Virus record (IMG/VR): IMGVR_UViG_3300030450_001359
Span: 1 to 23,962 of that record
Strand: one strand, 5' to 3'
Source of the DNA: a virus
DNA length: 23,962 nucleotides
Each line of letters starts with the position of its first letter. Positions within the stretch are counted from its first letter, which is position 1. Under the pieces are notes generated by a model. The model searched no databases, was not told the origin of the DNA, and worked only from the letters and a program-made list of their open reading frames with translations. The position numbers and the translations under genes are program-made. Shown here piece after piece: positions 50-23,962 of the stretch.

Positions 50-400
50 TTAATAAAATTTTTTTATATGCTTTCTCGCTTCTCTCTCTTTAGCAGATTT
101 ACTAGAGTGACAGCTTCTGCATAATGTCTGGAGATTATGGAGTGCAAGCTTTTCTCCGCCATCTCTTATCGCTATTCGATGGTCGATCTCTTGTCCTGGC
201 TCAGTTAAACCTTTTCTCTCGCATATCTCGCAGCAGGGATTAAGTTGTATTTTATATAGCCTTAGACTCCTCCAGCTCTTAGAATTATAGAAAGACCTCA
301 TATCTTCTGAGGCCCTACTCTTATTTATATTAAGTATATCTATACTTTTCTTTCTTCTTGGAATCCAAGGTCTTTTCTTCTTTTCTGGTAGTTTAGGCAT
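50..400 (-). CDS. HNH endonuclease
   Basis: A 116-residue HNH nuclease of the type common next to phage terminases. The N-terminal third is very basic. Cys57-x2-Cys60 (NPCCEIC) and Cys94-x2-Cys97-His98 (LCRSCH) form the zinc-binding pairs. Asp73-His74 (EIDHRIA) is the start of the beta-beta-alpha-metal active site, followed by Asn89. In HK97-like phages this small HNH protein works with terminase to cut concatemeric DNA, which is known from the family and not shown here. It starts seven bases after the NinG-like gene and is followed within five bases by the partial last gene. Length and motifs are complete. Confidence 0.9.
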   Translation of the reverse strand: MPKLPEKKKRPWIPRRKKSIDILNINKSRASEDMRSFYNSKSWRSLRLYKIQLNPCCEICERKGLTEPGQEIDHRIAIRDGGEKLALHNLQTLCRSCHSSKSAKEREARKHIKKFY

Positions 401-16020: not shown

Positions 16021-17247
16021 TTAAGGTACTTCAGTATTAATATCATCAGCCGCCATATTTGTCATCGTTCCAGGATTGCTATATAATGGAGCTGCATCTG
16101 GAATAGTAGGATAAGTAGCACCATCTCCGCATCGCCAATATCCTGCCAGATAATCGGAAGCTACAGGATATCTATTAGGGTCTCCAGTCTTTCCACTATT
16201 ATATAAGTCCTCTATATGGGCAGCAGATAAAACTTTATCCCATATAGAAACTTCATCTATATACATCGCAGCATAGTCTACTCCAGAATTTCTAGCTAGA
16301 TACATAGGATTCATAGTATTCGATGCAGTTCCCCAGCTACCAGTAAGAGTCACAGTAGCACCATCTCCATCTGTTTTACGAATGTTATTTACATACATTC
16401 TAAATCCAGTCTTAGCTAAAGTTAAATCATAAGTAATTACTATATGATACCAAGTATCAACAGATAAAATATCAGTAACATCCATCGTAATATAGTCAGT
16501 ATTAGTATCATTAAAATAGAGAATGAATCTTACTTGACCATTATATCGTACTAATAATTCCCATTCATAATGATAAGATCCTAAATCAAAAGCTCCGCTT
16601 TTGCTTGTTATCCACTGAGTCGAATGCTCTCCTGGTACGTTAATCCATACCGAATAACTCCATCCTCTCCCTGCATCAGAGCCATTAATACTCCATAAGG
16701 CATTATCTCCGAAAGTAACATAGTCATCTACTCCATCAAAAGCTAAAGAATAATTATTAGTCCACGTGTTTTCAATTTTATATCTAAGTACTCTTATTAC
16801 GAAATCTAAATGCTTTACGTAAATACCTCTATTTCCTGAATCATCATCGTAATCATCGACTGCTCCTTCAAATACTATAGAGTCTACGTATATATCATTC
16901 TCGTAAGGAGTATTAACAGACCCCCATTCTCTATCTAAAGCTTCTCGTACTTTTACTGCTATATTTTCCAGGTTATAATAATCAGAAGCAAATACAGATA
17001 TTTGCACTCTATTAGTATCTAAAATTGACCTTTGCTGGATTCTAGGGTCTGCCGCATTATCTACAGTATCTCCTGTAGTATTTAAAGGCACAGAGCTTAT
17101 TTCTCTATATACTATATACTCTCCTCTATCGCTTGCAATAGATGCTCCTTGCTCTGCTCTTACGGCATACATATTCGCAGTAGATACTAAGTCAGTAAGT
17201 TCTCCATACGCTGCTAATAAAGGATATATTATAGCTCCGCTTCTCAT
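16021..17247 (-). CDS. Tail-completion (DUF3168-like) protein fused to LamG-type lectin domain
   Basis: A 408-residue two-domain protein. Residues 1 to about 155 fit tail-terminator/completion proteins of the DUF3168 group: IIYPLLAAYGELTDLVSTAN, RGEYIVYREISSVPLNT, TNRVQISVFASDYYNLENIA, ending with HLDFVIRVLR. Residues about 167 to 385 are a LamG/jellyroll domain (YSLAFDGVDDYVTFGD, WSYSVWINVPGE, DTWYHIVITYDLTLAKTGFR, AMYIDEVSIWDKVL and AGYWRCGDG). The fused domain would be displayed at the head-tail neck or tail end and could bind glycans. The position, between the gp10-like gene (one-base overlap) and small tail genes, fits a tail terminator. The usual protein is only 110 to 160 residues long. 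Confidence 0.75.
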   Translation of the reverse strand: MRSGAIIYPLLAAYGELTDLVSTANMYAVRAEQGASIASDRGEYIVYREISSVPLNTTGDTVDNAADPRIQQRSILDTNRVQISVFASDYYNLENIAVKVREALDREWGSVNTPYENDIYVDSIVFEGAVDDYDDDSGNRGIYVKHLDFVIRVLRYKIENTWTNNYSLAFDGVDDYVTFGDNALWSINGSDAGRGWSYSVWINVPGEHSTQWITSKSGAFDLGSYHYEWELLVRYNGQVRFILYFNDTNTDYITMDVTDILSVDTWYHIVITYDLTLAKTGFRMYVNNIRKTDGDGATVTLTGSWGTASNTMNPMYLARNSGVDYAAMYIDEVSIWDKVLSAAHIEDLYNSGKTGDPNRYPVASDYLAGYWRCGDGATYPTIPDAAPLYSNPGTMTNMAADDINTEVP

Positions 17248-18889: not shown

Positions 18890-20113
18890 TTATGCTTCGA
18901 TTAGTTTATAGAAAGCAGTGTCATTTTGTACTGCATCTCCATCTACTAAAGAAGTTACAACCATTCTTGGAAGTCCTGAAGTTGCATTAGTATAAGGATC
19001 AAATAATACATCTAATCCACCAAATTGCGCTATATGTACTTTAGAGAAATCTCCGAATAATCCGTGAGCTTTGTTAGAAGCACCTGAAGCAGCTACATTT
19101 CCTGATTGGAAAGCATAGTAGCCATTCAATCTACGATCGCCATTATCCCATATAGGAGATACATCAGTTACTTGCGCCATAGTTTTTACAGCTTTATAAG
19201 CATCCATATCTAATAAGTAAGCCATTCTAGCTCCTTCTCTGTTTACACCAGCACCTAGTACATCAGTCTCTAACTCTACCCAGTCAGCAGCAGTAGTAGG
19301 AGAAGTAGTAGGCCCTGCAGCAGCATCAGCGAAGATAGATTGTGGAGCGTTTGATACATCTCCAGTATCTAATAAAGCAAACTCTAAAGAAGCAGCTACT
19401 TGAGAAGCCATCTGTCTAGTTAAAGCAGATTCTAAAGCTGGATTTTGCATCATTGACTCAGCAGTCATATTTACTACAGAGATTAATTTCTTAGGAGTTA
19501 AAGTTACCGCAGATAAATCTCCTGCAGATGATGGAGCGCCTGATCCTGCTTCTGTAACCCAAGATGAAGAAATACCAGAGAATACTGGAAATTTAAGGTC
19601 ATTTACTCCAGCATAGAAATTAGCTCCAGCAGATGCTAGTACTAAATTTTTCTCTAATTGCTCAGTAAAGCTCATTACTTCTTCATTATTTACTGAAGCA
19701 GTACTCCACGCTCTAGTTAATACTGAAGATGGAATTCCATATCCTTTTATAGTATTGCCAGTATAACGAGATTCGTTTACTGCTTCCTGATGCATCTCTT
19801 TATATATTCCATCTACTTGACCAGTATAAGCAGCTCTTATCGCTCCCTGGAAAGTAAATTTCTTCAAATCTTTATCTGAGTCAGAGCTAAGTTTAGCTCC
19901 AGATACTGCAGCAGCAGTTCTTAATTCAGCTTCCATTTTCTCTGCTCTTTTGATTTGTACATCTAATTCATCTATAGAAGATAGAGTATTATCTACTTCA
20001 ATAGTTTCAGCCTCGTTAAGATTTCTAGATTCTCCTTCAGCAGTATTTTTGATTGCCTCTAAAGTATCTACAAGTCCTGAACGAGATTCTTTTAATTCTA
20101 ACGATTTTTTCAT
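18890..20113 (-). CDS. Major capsid protein, HK97 fold
   Basis: A 407-residue HK97-type capsid protein. Residues 1 to about 85 form a charged helical delta/scaffold domain (MKKSLELKESRSGLVDTLEA, then IDELDVQIKRAEKMEAELRT) that is normally cut off by the prohead protease after assembly. The rest is the capsid fold: VLTRAWSTASVNNEEV, SSSWVTEAGSGAPSS, TPKKLISVVNMTAESMMQNP, and the C-terminal AHGLFGDFSKVHIAQFGGLD. It overlaps the protease gene by four bases (ATGA), and a strong terminator follows it. The exact cut site cannot be fixed, but the Lys/Asp-rich region around residue 80 is the likely zone. Confidence 0.92.
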   Translation of the reverse strand: MKKSLELKESRSGLVDTLEAIKNTAEGESRNLNEAETIEVDNTLSSIDELDVQIKRAEKMEAELRTAAAVSGAKLSSDSDKDLKKFTFQGAIRAAYTGQVDGIYKEMHQEAVNESRYTGNTIKGYGIPSSVLTRAWSTASVNNEEVMSFTEQLEKNLVLASAGANFYAGVNDLKFPVFSGISSSWVTEAGSGAPSSAGDLSAVTLTPKKLISVVNMTAESMMQNPALESALTRQMASQVAASLEFALLDTGDVSNAPQSIFADAAAGPTTSPTTAADWVELETDVLGAGVNREGARMAYLLDMDAYKAVKTMAQVTDVSPIWDNGDRRLNGYYAFQSGNVAASGASNKAHGLFGDFSKVHIAQFGGLDVLFDPYTNATSGLPRMVVTSLVDGDAVQNDTAFYKLIEA

Positions 20114-21561
20114 TGTTCCGATCTTTTTAATAAGTTAATTTTCAAATTTAATAATGTATTCATTTCAAATTTTTCCTCATCTTGTTTTCTTTTGTTTTCT
20201 TTATCCATAAAGTTGCTTCTATGTGCTAAAGCCAGATTATCGGCTGAGGGGTAAGCAGGGAGGCTGACAGGAGATACATCGTACAAGCGATTCACTTTAT
20301 GTATTAATCTTACATCTCCACTATCTCCTCGCTCCCAGGAATCCCCATCTTTTCCGATCGTAAATGCGAAAGAAGACTGACTTATATTACCAAGCCTCAT
20401 ATTCTCTTTTAAGTCCCTTCCTGCCGTTGTATCTGGAATATCTAGCTCATATCGAAGTCCCTTTTCATCTACTCCTAGTCTTAAAGTTCCTGCAGATACT
20501 CTACCTAGAATAAAATTAGGGTCGTGATTAAAGTAAGCTCTTACATCATTGTCTAAGACATCATCAAAAGCTCCAGGCATTATCTTCTCTCTGAATCCTC
20601 CTAAATCTTCACTTAAACTATTAAAGACTGCAGCGTGTCCTACTACTACATCTTTTCCCTTTTTTTGTGTTATTCTACTTTCTATCTCAAAGAATCTCTT
20701 TTCAGAAGTATGTTTCTCATCCCATACATTAACTCCATCGAGTTTTCTCATCCCATACTCATCCTCTGTATCTTCTTCGATTTCTTCTTCTTCTTCTTCA
20801 TCTATATCCTCTATGATATCTTCTTTAGGAGTTTCTTCCATATCTTCTGGCCCTCTTAATACTTCTTCCTCCTCCTCCTCAGTTTCCACTTTTTCCATAA
20901 TATCTTCAGTAGATGCATCAGTATCTTTTTCGTAAACGATTGTAACTGTTTTCTCATCTTCTTTTATTTCTATTATATGTCTTTTCTTAATTTCTCCCAT
21001 AGTTTTTACTTCTATTATTTTTATATTTTCCTCCTCCTCTATATTTTCAAATCTTTCCCAGTAAGATTCTATATATGATTTCCACTCCTCTGGCCTTTCA
21101 TTTTTTGCTACTTCTAAACATTCTTCTTTATTTCTACTTATATATATAATCTCAGCATTTAATTCTTTTGCTAAGTTTTGTCTTACTTCTTTTAAAGGAG
21201 AAGAATTAATAATCCATACTCTTAGATTCTTTTCATTTTTTAAATCTTCATAAAACTTCTTACGCATAGAAAATATATATTTTCTTACTTCCTCTATATG
21301 ATTATGAGTATCTTCTCCAGTTAGAGCAGTATGAATTTTATCAAAGTCCCATACTATATCTCCCTGTCTTTTATTCTTTTCTATATAAGTATTCTTTCCA
21401 CTACAAGGAGAGCCAGAGACTATTTTAATATTTCTCTCTAATTGAGATTCGCATACTGCATATCTCTGCTTATCATCGTATTCCTGCATAACCTGATCGG
21501 CCATACATCTATCTAAAAATTCTTTTTTAGATTCGTTATTTTTTGGCTCTGGTATCGGCAT
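20110..21561 (-). CDS. P-loop kinase / HK97 prohead protease (S78) fusion
   Basis: A 483-residue multi-domain protein. Residues 1 to 41 carry a short phage motif (RCMADQVMQEY followed by QRYAVCESQ) often found at the N-terminus of head proteases. Residues about 45 to 185 are a P-loop kinase-like NTPase: Walker A GSPCSGKNT (50 to 58), VWDFDKIHTALTG (Asp72, Asp74) and a lid-like Arg/Lys region. Residues about 225 to 266 are a very acidic Glu linker. Residues about 285 to 445 are the S78 protease: FREKIMPGAFDD, AYFNHDPNFILGR (His346) and NISQSSFAF (probable Ser397). The protease processes the capsid delta domain. An internal start near Met271 could give protease alone. Confidence 0.85.
   Translation of the reverse strand: MPIPEPKNNESKKEFLDRCMADQVMQEYDDKQRYAVCESQLERNIKIVSGSPCSGKNTYIEKNKRQGDIVWDFDKIHTALTGEDTHNHIEEVRKYIFSMRKKFYEDLKNEKNLRVWIINSSPLKEVRQNLAKELNAEIIYISRNKEECLEVAKNERPEEWKSYIESYWERFENIEEEENIKIIEVKTMGEIKKRHIIEIKEDEKTVTIVYEKDTDASTEDIMEKVETEEEEEEVLRGPEDMEETPKEDIIEDIDEEEEEEIEEDTEDEYGMRKLDGVNVWDEKHTSEKRFFEIESRITQKKGKDVVVGHAAVFNSLSEDLGGFREKIMPGAFDDVLDNDVRAYFNHDPNFILGRVSAGTLRLGVDEKGLRYELDIPDTTAGRDLKENMRLGNISQSSFAFTIGKDGDSWERGDSGDVRLIHKVNRLYDVSPVSLPAYPSADNLALAHRSNFMDKENKRKQDEEKFEMNTLLNLKINLLKRSEQ
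20143..20169 (-). promoter_or_regulatory. Weak candidate promoter for the capsid gene
   Basis: Inside the protease gene the minus strand has TAAATTTG (20150..20143), an exact TAnnTTTG match, 29 bases before the capsid ATG (20113), with TTTG at 20169..20166 upstream. The spacing is only 15 bases, shorter than the usual 17 to 23, and AT-rich DNA gives such matches by chance, so this is a low-confidence site for extra capsid transcription. Confidence 0.3.
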
Positions 21562-22762
21562 TATTATCTTTTAAAGTTCCTCCTTCTACTATGTCATTTA
21601 ATGTAGCCATATTAAGCTGCATAAAGTGATTCTCTCCTCCTTGTATTGTCGGAAGCTCCTCATATTGTCTTATCTCATCAATACTTAAAGCTCCTATATT
21701 TAACATCGTTCTATAATATTCAGCTCTATCTTTTGGAGTTCCTCTTAATAAAGCATTTACATTAAATTTAGTTCCTATCTTATTTAATTCATTCTTCCTA
21801 AATAATTTACAGTTCATCTCTGATTCCATCATAACGATATAAGGCATTAAAGAATACTGCACAAATTCTCTACTTTGCTCTGATATATTATTAAAGCTAG
21901 ATTTTGTTAAATCTCTAAGTAAGTGAGGAGGTAAATTAAACAGTCGAGCTATTTCAGTAATAGAAAATTCTCTGGATTTGAGAAACTGGCTGGCCTCGTT
22001 TGACAGGCTAATCTGTTGAAATTTAAGCCCTTCCTCTAGTACCATAGTTTTATTAGAGTCTCTTAAGCTAGAATAATTCTCTTTAAAAGATACTCTTAAT
22101 CTATTAATAGCCTCATCCGATAAATGTCTATCTGTAGAAAGTACGCCTGATACTTTTGCGCCATTAGAAAAGTAAGAATTTCCATACTGCTCTAAAGCTA
22201 ATCCATATCCGATCGCAGAAGCTCCTACATCTACTGGAGACATTCCTACAAATCCATCTTTGCTCATTACTTTAAAATGCAAAATATCATAAGAATCCAC
22301 TAGACCTCCTTCATCTAATTCGTAATATATCTCTCCTTCATTTTCTATCAGCCTTACTTTTTTTACATCTAAAGGTAGTAACTCTACAGGAGTAGCTCCA
22401 TTATTTCTATTAATATATACGAAAGAATTTCCTCGAGTTAATAAATCTATCATACACTTCTGAATAAAAGTATAAGTAGTCATATTCTCATTAGGCTTGC
22501 GATGTAATAAATTATAAATTTTATGATTAAAAGCAGTTAATTTATTTCCTGCCTTATCAGTTTCAAATACTGAGAGAGGTAGCTGAGCTATAGATTCAGA
22601 TAATATTCTGATAGCACCCCATACCGCAGTAAAATTCATAGCGGATTCATCTGTTACCATAACACCTGCAGTAGGTTGCCCTACTTGTGACATAGCCTGT
22701 AAAAATCCGTTTCTCTTTTCTGTTCTTGTAAAAATTCCTCGTAAAGTATCTAGTATCCCCAT
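21536..22762 (-). CDS. Portal protein, HK97 family
   Basis: A 408-residue HK97-type portal. The recognisable parts are an N-terminal helix (MGILDTLRGIFTRTEKRNGF), NFTAVWGAIRILSESIAQLP, the LHRKPNENMTTYTFIQKCMI region, the RGNSFVYINRNNGATPVELL strand, EEGLKFQQISLSNEASQFLK, and REFSITEIARLFNLPPHLLR before the C-terminal AEYYRTMLNIGALSIDEIRQ and LPTIQGGE. It forms the dodecameric gate through which the terminase pumps DNA. It overlaps the protease gene by 26 bases, an unusually long overlap for this cluster. Length and domains are complete. Confidence 0.93.
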   Translation of the reverse strand: MGILDTLRGIFTRTEKRNGFLQAMSQVGQPTAGVMVTDESAMNFTAVWGAIRILSESIAQLPLSVFETDKAGNKLTAFNHKIYNLLHRKPNENMTTYTFIQKCMIDLLTRGNSFVYINRNNGATPVELLPLDVKKVRLIENEGEIYYELDEGGLVDSYDILHFKVMSKDGFVGMSPVDVGASAIGYGLALEQYGNSYFSNGAKVSGVLSTDRHLSDEAINRLRVSFKENYSSLRDSNKTMVLEEGLKFQQISLSNEASQFLKSREFSITEIARLFNLPPHLLRDLTKSSFNNISEQSREFVQYSLMPYIVMMESEMNCKLFRKNELNKIGTKFNVNALLRGTPKDRAEYYRTMLNIGALSIDEIRQYEELPTIQGGENHFMQLNMATLNDIVEGGTLKDNNADTRAKK

Positions 22763-23036: not shown

Positions 23037-23962
23037 TCAAAAGGTTAATATTCCTCGCTCATCGTATATAGAATCTCCATCGGATTCATCTGTCATCATC
23101 TCTCCTAGAGCCATTACTAGAGCTACCATTCCATCTACTTTCTCCGAGCTTCTCTGTTTATTTATTTTTATATTTCCTGCTGGGTCAGTTTGTAAGCTTA
23201 CATTTTCGCACTGCCAGCGTAGTACTGGATTTCTTATATGATTAATTTCTTTTTTAAGTACCAGCTTTTCGAGTTCTTTCGATGGGGCTGACATACTACG
23301 GTAGCCCTGGCCGAATTGACTCATAGGTATTCCATCTTGTTGAGCTAGCTGGATAATAAGCTGGCTAGAATTCCAGCGATCGTAGGCTATACTTTGTAAA
23401 TCATAATCTTCTATAATTTTATTTATATCCTGTCTTATATAGTCATAATCTTGTACATCTCCTGGAGTTGCTTTTATATATCCATCGGCTATCCATTCAT
23501 CGTAAGGCAGTTTATATTTCCTTCCTCTGAGTTCTGCCGATTCTTCTGGACACCAGAAGCGCACTAATACTACATCCTTCTGCTCCTCCATAGGAAAATA
23601 TAATACGAGACTAGATAAATCCATAGTCGAGGCTAGGTCTAAACCTCCCCAGCATCGCTTCCCTTTTAAAGATTCTAAATCTATTTCTTCATAATTTTCC
23701 ATCCATACACTATCGGAAATCCATTTTGTAATAGTAGAAGTCCATATATTAAGATGTAATCTTTTAAAAGTATTTTCGTAACTCGGTAACTCAGCAGCTC
23801 TCTTAGCTTCAGTTACTAAATAATCATTAGAGATAGACACTCCTAAATTAGGATTAGCTTTCTTCCAGGTCTCTGGGTTTTGTATATCATCCTCGGCATC
23901 GGCTGCATAGATTACAGATAGATGAGTGTCATCGTTTATAATTTTATTTTTTACCTTTTCCG
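23037..23962 (-). CDS. Terminase large subunit, C-terminal part (5' end outside window)
   Basis: The frame is open to the right edge of the window, so about 308 residues of the C-terminal part are visible. It begins EKVKNKIINDDTHLSVIY and includes ETWKKANPNLGVSIS, a typical terminase junction segment. The nuclease domain follows: GGLDLASTMDLSSLVL (first catalytic Asp), LQSIAYDRWNSSQ (second Asp) and KVDGMVALVMALG (third Asp). The ATPase half with the Walker motifs lies outside. The enzyme cuts and packages DNA through the portal encoded just downstream. The frame shows no interruption, so truncation is only at the window edge. Confidence 0.93.
   Translation of the reverse strand, partial: EKVKNKIINDDTHLSVIYAADAEDDIQNPETWKKANPNLGVSISNDYLVTEAKRAAELPSYENTFKRLHLNIWTSTITKWISDSVWMENYEEIDLESLKGKRCWGGLDLASTMDLSSLVLYFPMEEQKDVVLVRFWCPEESAELRGRKYKLPYDEWIADGYIKATPGDVQDYDYIRQDINKIIEDYDLQSIAYDRWNSSQLIIQLAQQDGIPMSQFGQGYRSMSAPSKELEKLVLKKEINHIRNPVLRWQCENVSLQTDPAGNIKINKQRSSEKVDGMVALVMALGEMMTDESDGDSIYDERGILTF

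Follow-up and report, generated by a model that had tools for sequence, protein, structure and literature searches.

Phages of the HK97 family encode an S78 prohead protease between the portal protein and the major capsid protein. PHROG_9644, named 'head maturation protease', comprises proteins encoded directly after the portal, as in the DNA described below, among them UKM35917.1 of S. aureus phage vB_SauS_308 and gp04 of Corynebacterium phage phi673; its profile contains a kinase at positions 4-139 and an S78 protease at positions 141-327 and is annotated as a protease only. The kinase-protease fusion is, thus, already contained in a known family, where it stands without comment. The same kinase family is found in PHROG_4581, named 'terminase small subunit', which holds HNH-kinase proteins, e.g. 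ORF61 of Lactobacillus phage A2, and proteins called 'polynucleotide kinase' in mycobacteriophages and Gordonia phages. Iyer et al. (2017) described MuF and portal proteins that carry fused effector domains and suggested that these domains are injected (PMC5512222); a P-loop family on S78 or ClpP head proteases was not found described in that paper, and the kinase-protease fusion was not found described in the open-access literature searched.

Here, we analysed a 23,962-nucleotide stretch of viral DNA (positions 1 to 23,962 of IMG/VR record IMGVR_UViG_3300030450_001359; referred to as the window). The coding sequence at 20110..21561, which lies on the minus strand like all features of the window given below, encodes a protein of 483 amino acids in a single open frame, and relatives have the same architecture. 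It directly follows, and overlaps by 26 bp, the gene for the portal protein (21536..22762; phrog_12, 4e-121) and is directly followed by the gene for an HK97-type major capsid protein (18890..20113; phrog_617, 9e-35), i.e. the portal-protease-capsid order of the HK97 family. All parts named in the original prediction, including an N-terminal motif, the Walker A sequence GSPCSGKNT, a DFD, a Glu-rich linker and a complete S78 protease, were located in this one uninterrupted frame. The N-motif MPIPxP...FLDRCM...EY..QR.A.C..Q, defined by a 12-sequence alignment (A3), occupies residues 1-44 (21430..21561) and the P-loop kinase domain residues 45-186 (21004..21429). They are followed by a fast-evolving stretch of residues 189-285 (20707..20997), which consists of an RHI segment and the acidic linker, is Glu-rich over residues ~205-285 and has a dN/dS of 0.2-0.5 in most pairs, and by the S78 protease at residues 294-441 (20239..20682), for which the matches to PF04586 (E 1.8e-44; 152 bits versus 21) and TIGR01543 (2.5e-30; 105 bits versus 59) are far above the curated cut-offs. 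The whole fusion is kept in close relatives at 73-80% identity, and we hold this description of its anatomy with very high confidence. Among the head-tail joining genes of the window, the ORF at 16021-17247 (408 aa) encodes a different N-terminal part followed, at residues 171-345, by a LamG-like lectin domain (PF13385) and, thus, is itself an odd fusion.

The N-motif was matched by no Pfam or PHROG model. It is also present on S78 proteases that lack the kinase, on a ClpP-type protease (L198) and on HAD genes adjoining TerS (L261-264, L274), and is possibly a docking or procapsid-targeting signal. An alternative N-motif, MPAxxCxNGKYxWGxxGxCKYxSxxEAExDN, precedes this kinase instead of the common one in the proteases of L012 and L039-L049.

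The whole protein matched PHROG_9644 at 8.9e-49 in two stretches, with matches in both the kinase half and the protease half, while for the kinase segment alone the match was 1e-30 to PHROG_4581 and 9e-20 to the kinase half of PHROG_9644. By contrast, the kinase alone gave nothing credible against Pfam and NCBIfam, where hits to IDO, KTI12 and others were chance matches, and nothing significant in a profile search of PDB sequences. The window protein also lacked a match to Pfam AAA_33, the cut-off of which (27) is exceeded by the relatives L089 (29.8 bits) and L057 (29.0 bits). An AlphaFold2 model of the kinase built from a 48-sequence alignment had a pLDDT of 94.8, and the top five PDB matches of this model in Foldseek were all C. 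thermocellum polynucleotide kinase (4gp6, 4gp7, 4mde; E 4e-5 to 7.6e-5), followed by gluconokinase, shikimate kinase, PSTK and T4 PNK. Among the 48 family members, G50, P52, G55 and K56 of the Walker A motif (residues 50-58; 21388..21414) are invariant, and position 57 is occupied by S (36 members) or N (12); D72 and D74 of the DxD motif D72-F-D74 (21340..21348) are each conserved in 47; the lid arginine R156 (21094..21096) is R in 31; and a further lid position, 151, is R in 41 but V in the window clade. Moreover, a dN/dS of 0.06-0.26 indicates that the kinase is under purifying selection. We conclude that the domain is predicted with confidence to have a P-loop kinase fold of alpha/beta type with a DxD motif, as had been proposed for this part of the head-protease polypeptide from the letters of the sequence, and that polynucleotide kinase is its best structural match.

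The fold leaves the substrate undecided because the arginine that follows the DxD in PNK is not conserved and because shikimate and gluconate kinases, too, typically have a DxD. Specifically, the D-x-x-R motif after strand 2 that marks the T4/Cth Pnkp type is absent from the family, in which D72 is conserved and position 75, the equivalent of T4 R38, is variable. The earlier suggestion that the NTPase modifies DNA or nucleotides still names the best class of explanation, despite the missing PNK arginine, and we tentatively favour nucleic-acid ends as the substrate, at less than even confidence.

The fused genes may also direct synthesis of the protease on its own. Met188 (20998..21000), immediately behind the kinase, is invariant in ~30 relatives while the sequence preceding it varies freely, and it is the sole start in relatives without the N-motif. 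An internal start had been predicted near Met271; however, Met271 is not conserved, and Met188 is the likely start. Among 37 diverse kinase-S78 fusions, a Met follows the kinase by no more than 40 residues in 33, versus an expectation of 43% (binomial 6e-9); the remaining four have a GTG at the junction. Because a test for Shine-Dalgarno (SD) sequences is uninformative in the SD-poor clade of the window, it was assessed in SD-using relatives: an SD energy of -6 or lower was found before the junction start in 23 of 38 SD-type fusions (41 rows minus three from the window's clade) compared to 20% of matched random stretches, and the junction of the S. aureus phage reads AAAGAGGAGGTGAGGAAA-ATG. 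In the window, SD-like sequences precede only 2 of 25 gene starts (the 25 minus-strand genes), and the starts are A/T-rich; since SD sequences are rarely used there, the evidence for an internal start in the window phage itself is solely the invariant Met. Altogether, the junction Met or GTG and the SD enrichment suggest that free protease is probably made beside the fusion, and we consider an internal protease start at the junction probable from these sequence comparisons. SD-poor, A/T-rich starts resemble those of phages of Bacteroidota, from which group the host may come.

The original prediction regarded a fusion of this kind as unusual. In a survey of IMG/VR and GTDB contigs by pattern-limited scans, in which counts of architectures are not frequencies in nature, 127 unique kinases comprised 48 on HNH proteins, 48 N-terminal to S78 and four on lambda-type portals, with the rest alone or unresolved. 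The HNH-kinase proteins adjoin the terminase upstream. Moreover, eight kinases (three of them Pfam-confirmed) lie N-terminal to ClpP-type (S14) head proteases, which are unrelated to S78. The fusion, therefore, is not unusual: it recurs on two unrelated protease folds and across phyla, in phages of Actinomycetota, Bacillota and Chloroflexota, and PHROG_9644 spans both domains. Where the kinase is borne by a portal it is at the portal's C terminus, whereas on proteases it is N-terminal, and in Rhodococcus-type prophages an unfused kinase gene lies between portal and protease. In two of these prophages (L218 5213-7084, L107 4213-6084), S78 is apparently fused to a capsid-like protein in a 623-aa ORF after the separate kinase. 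Standalone kinase relatives of 170-180 aa occur in Saccharibacteria (L249-L251, L253-L258), where no phage head or packaging genes were recognised around them.

In 28 loci showing both an HNH protein and a head protease, the kinase was borne by HNH in 21, by the protease in seven and by both in none; in these loci, the two placements are mutually exclusive, and two kinases in one locus were not seen in the loci surveyed. A kinase tree, calculated by a quick method from few columns, needs at least three switches between HNH and protease as well as two S14 origins. In the same tree, with these limits, the kinases of L055 (S78) and L201 (ClpP) group as sisters with full support, indicating that the protease partner was swapped while the kinase was retained. 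In the window, the HNH endonuclease (50..400; PF01844, 7.5e-12) is separate and without a kinase domain. It and TerL (23037-23840) are at opposite ends of the window; should the genome be circular or the record permuted, HNH would adjoin the terminase upstream, as in cos phages.

These arrangements bear on the possibility that the fusion is incidental, i.e. that a kinase gene came to lie between portal and protease by insertion and then lost its stop codon, that the enzyme acts in free or released form, and that the linkage has no role. The separate kinase gene that Rhodococcus-type prophages have in this place, the occurrence of fusion both ways, to the portal C terminus or the protease N terminus, and the retention of a start codon at the junction are consistent with such a history. 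However, fusion is far commoner than separation in our sample and recurs on two unrelated proteases as well as on HNH, suggesting that the linkage itself is favoured, and we regard an incidental fusion as unlikely.

In one relative, L025, the kinase slot is occupied by a HAD-like domain. All HAD motifs, i.e. DxD, S/T, K and the acidic motif IV, are present, with invariant D6, D8, K65 and D79 plus S/T34 in alignment A5. A model of the L025 domain had a pLDDT of 93 and gave weak fold matches with KDO8P-type phosphatases among those on top (best Foldseek E 0.009). Among PHROG families, relatives of the domain hit one of nucleotidases (6e-5) and, more weakly, one of polynucleotide kinases (1e-3), such that the assignment to HAD is weakly supported by sequence as well as by fold; a tblastn search with the L025 segment against isolate phages gave no match. 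Some of these relatives are encoded directly upstream of TerS and TerL, in some cases with the N-motif, and others are C-terminal fusions to XkdF-type head proteases. The kinase and the HAD domain, thus, share two niches, beside the terminase and on a head protease, and it is mainly for this reason that we favour a role in processing nucleic-acid ends over that of some random metabolic kinase.

In total, we propose, at a probability of about one half, that the fusion carries a phosphotransferase of the polynucleotide kinase/gluconate kinase type in an accessory slot of the protease, that its family is tied to the packaging/head module, and that it may function at packaging in end processing or a related phosphotransfer. 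The P-loop phosphotransferase would fill an N-terminal accessory slot of the head protease; members of its family ride on HNH, on the portal C terminus or on the head protease, or stand alone, and no more than one copy per locus was seen. Initiation at Met188 would also yield free protease, such that two nested products would arise, one of them the full-length protein, and the kinase fused in it would be carried with the protease into the procapsid. The enzyme may act on nucleic-acid ends by 5'-OH phosphorylation around genome cutting and packaging, and the HAD domain may provide a complementary or alternative phosphatase activity. Alternatively, the substrate of the kinase may be a nucleotide or a small molecule.

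The enzymes in the slot could, instead, be virion cargo that acts early: they would enter the particle together with the protease and, once injected or released, would oppose host defence or modify nucleotides or tRNA of the host, an idea put forward for polyvalent proteins and MuF/portal fusions. In our sample, an HNH nuclease beside the terminase is among the two commonest homes of the kinase, and such a nuclease is not known to enter the capsid. In addition, no relevant PADLOC model fits the kinase, and the HAD domain also adjoins TerS. These observations make cargo improbable, even though the contents of the slot are variable and unrelated (kinase, HAD and others) behind a common N-motif, the kinase is also fused to portals, and injection has been suggested for MuF and portal effector fusions (PMC5512222).

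Comparisons of near-identical phages argue that the kinase is an accessory part. L003, which has the kinase, is 99.9% identical to L017 and L019, which do not, from the junction Met on and 95.5% identical before it, and presence or absence is in frame. The pattern AATATWAAAATART matches only twice in the window, at the left copy AATATTAAAATAGT of a direct repeat at the kinase start (21419..21432) and at the right copy AATATAAAAATAAT at the kinase end (21014..21027), both in frame and 405 bp (135 codons) apart; the pattern was derived from these two sites, and a shuffle control is, therefore, no independent test. L134 lacks the kinase and retains NIKI-IEVKTM, the product expected of recombination between the flanking copies, and appears from its sequence to be an excision product, while L133 has a decayed kinase scar. 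In other relatives the slot is empty or holds other domains. The kinase also stands out by its GC content of 27%, compared to 33-38% in the flanks, and is nevertheless under purifying selection. We conclude that the kinase is very likely a mobile accessory cassette. A domain with 'GLEWREEFGRGGTEVGVARARD', matching phrog_2859 in L044 and L051, recurs between the N-motif or kinase and S78 (L155-L161, L171, L174, L176, L181, L187, L194, L197; L044, L051).

The presence of phages without the domain that are 99.9% identical downstream disfavours the earlier idea of a regulatory role in maturation. In such a role, the kinase would control the protease in an ATP-dependent manner or phosphorylate head proteins. 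The covalent linkage and the position adjoining the maturation protease would suit such a role; however, near-identical phages do without the kinase, and the same family rides on HNH in phages in which the protease has none, making this role very unlikely. Finally, although the GC content of the kinase (27%) differs from that of its flanks (33-38%), a frame error joining two genes or an assembly chimera can be dismissed since the same in-frame fusion is present in many independent IMG/VR contigs and in isolate genomes.

If end processing is the function, then tailed phages might more generally carry packaging-associated end processing assembled from exchangeable modules: either a P-loop 5'-kinase or a HAD 3'-phosphatase would dock on HNH/terminase or on protease/portal but never on both, amounting to an unrecognised end repair at packaging or at the first ligation after injection; we consider this extension speculative and rather unlikely. 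A single family that is found, one copy per locus, on a terminase-helping nuclease, a portal or two unrelated protease folds, and whose place at the same site can be taken by a phosphatase-like domain, suggests that DNA cutting/packaging and the procapsid have a function in common that is missing from current packaging models. The near-identical phages with and without the kinase make its role directly testable. Moreover, the annotations 'terminase small subunit' and 'prohead protease' conceal a kinase, and the fused genes probably hold an internal protease start that is likewise hidden. The interest lies in the wider pattern of a single kinase that shifts among a packaging nuclease, portals and head proteases, with a phosphatase-like alternative.

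Compared to the known systems, the window protein differs from the PHROG_9644 isolates, which are without the N-motif or acidic linker and in which the kinase is only ~24-27% identical, and from PHROG_4581, in which the kinase is on an HNH protein or alone beside the terminase and not on a protease. It is predicted to share the P-loop kinase fold with the C. thermocellum and T4 polynucleotide kinases, with plausible positions for the catalytic Asp and the lid Arg, but has a DxD where these enzymes have DxxR. With the HK97-family S78 proteases it shares the complete protease domain and the gene order, and adds the N-terminal N-motif, kinase and acidic linker. Finally, as in polyvalent proteins and MuF/portal effector fusions (PMC5512222), swappable enzymatic domains are carried on head proteins.
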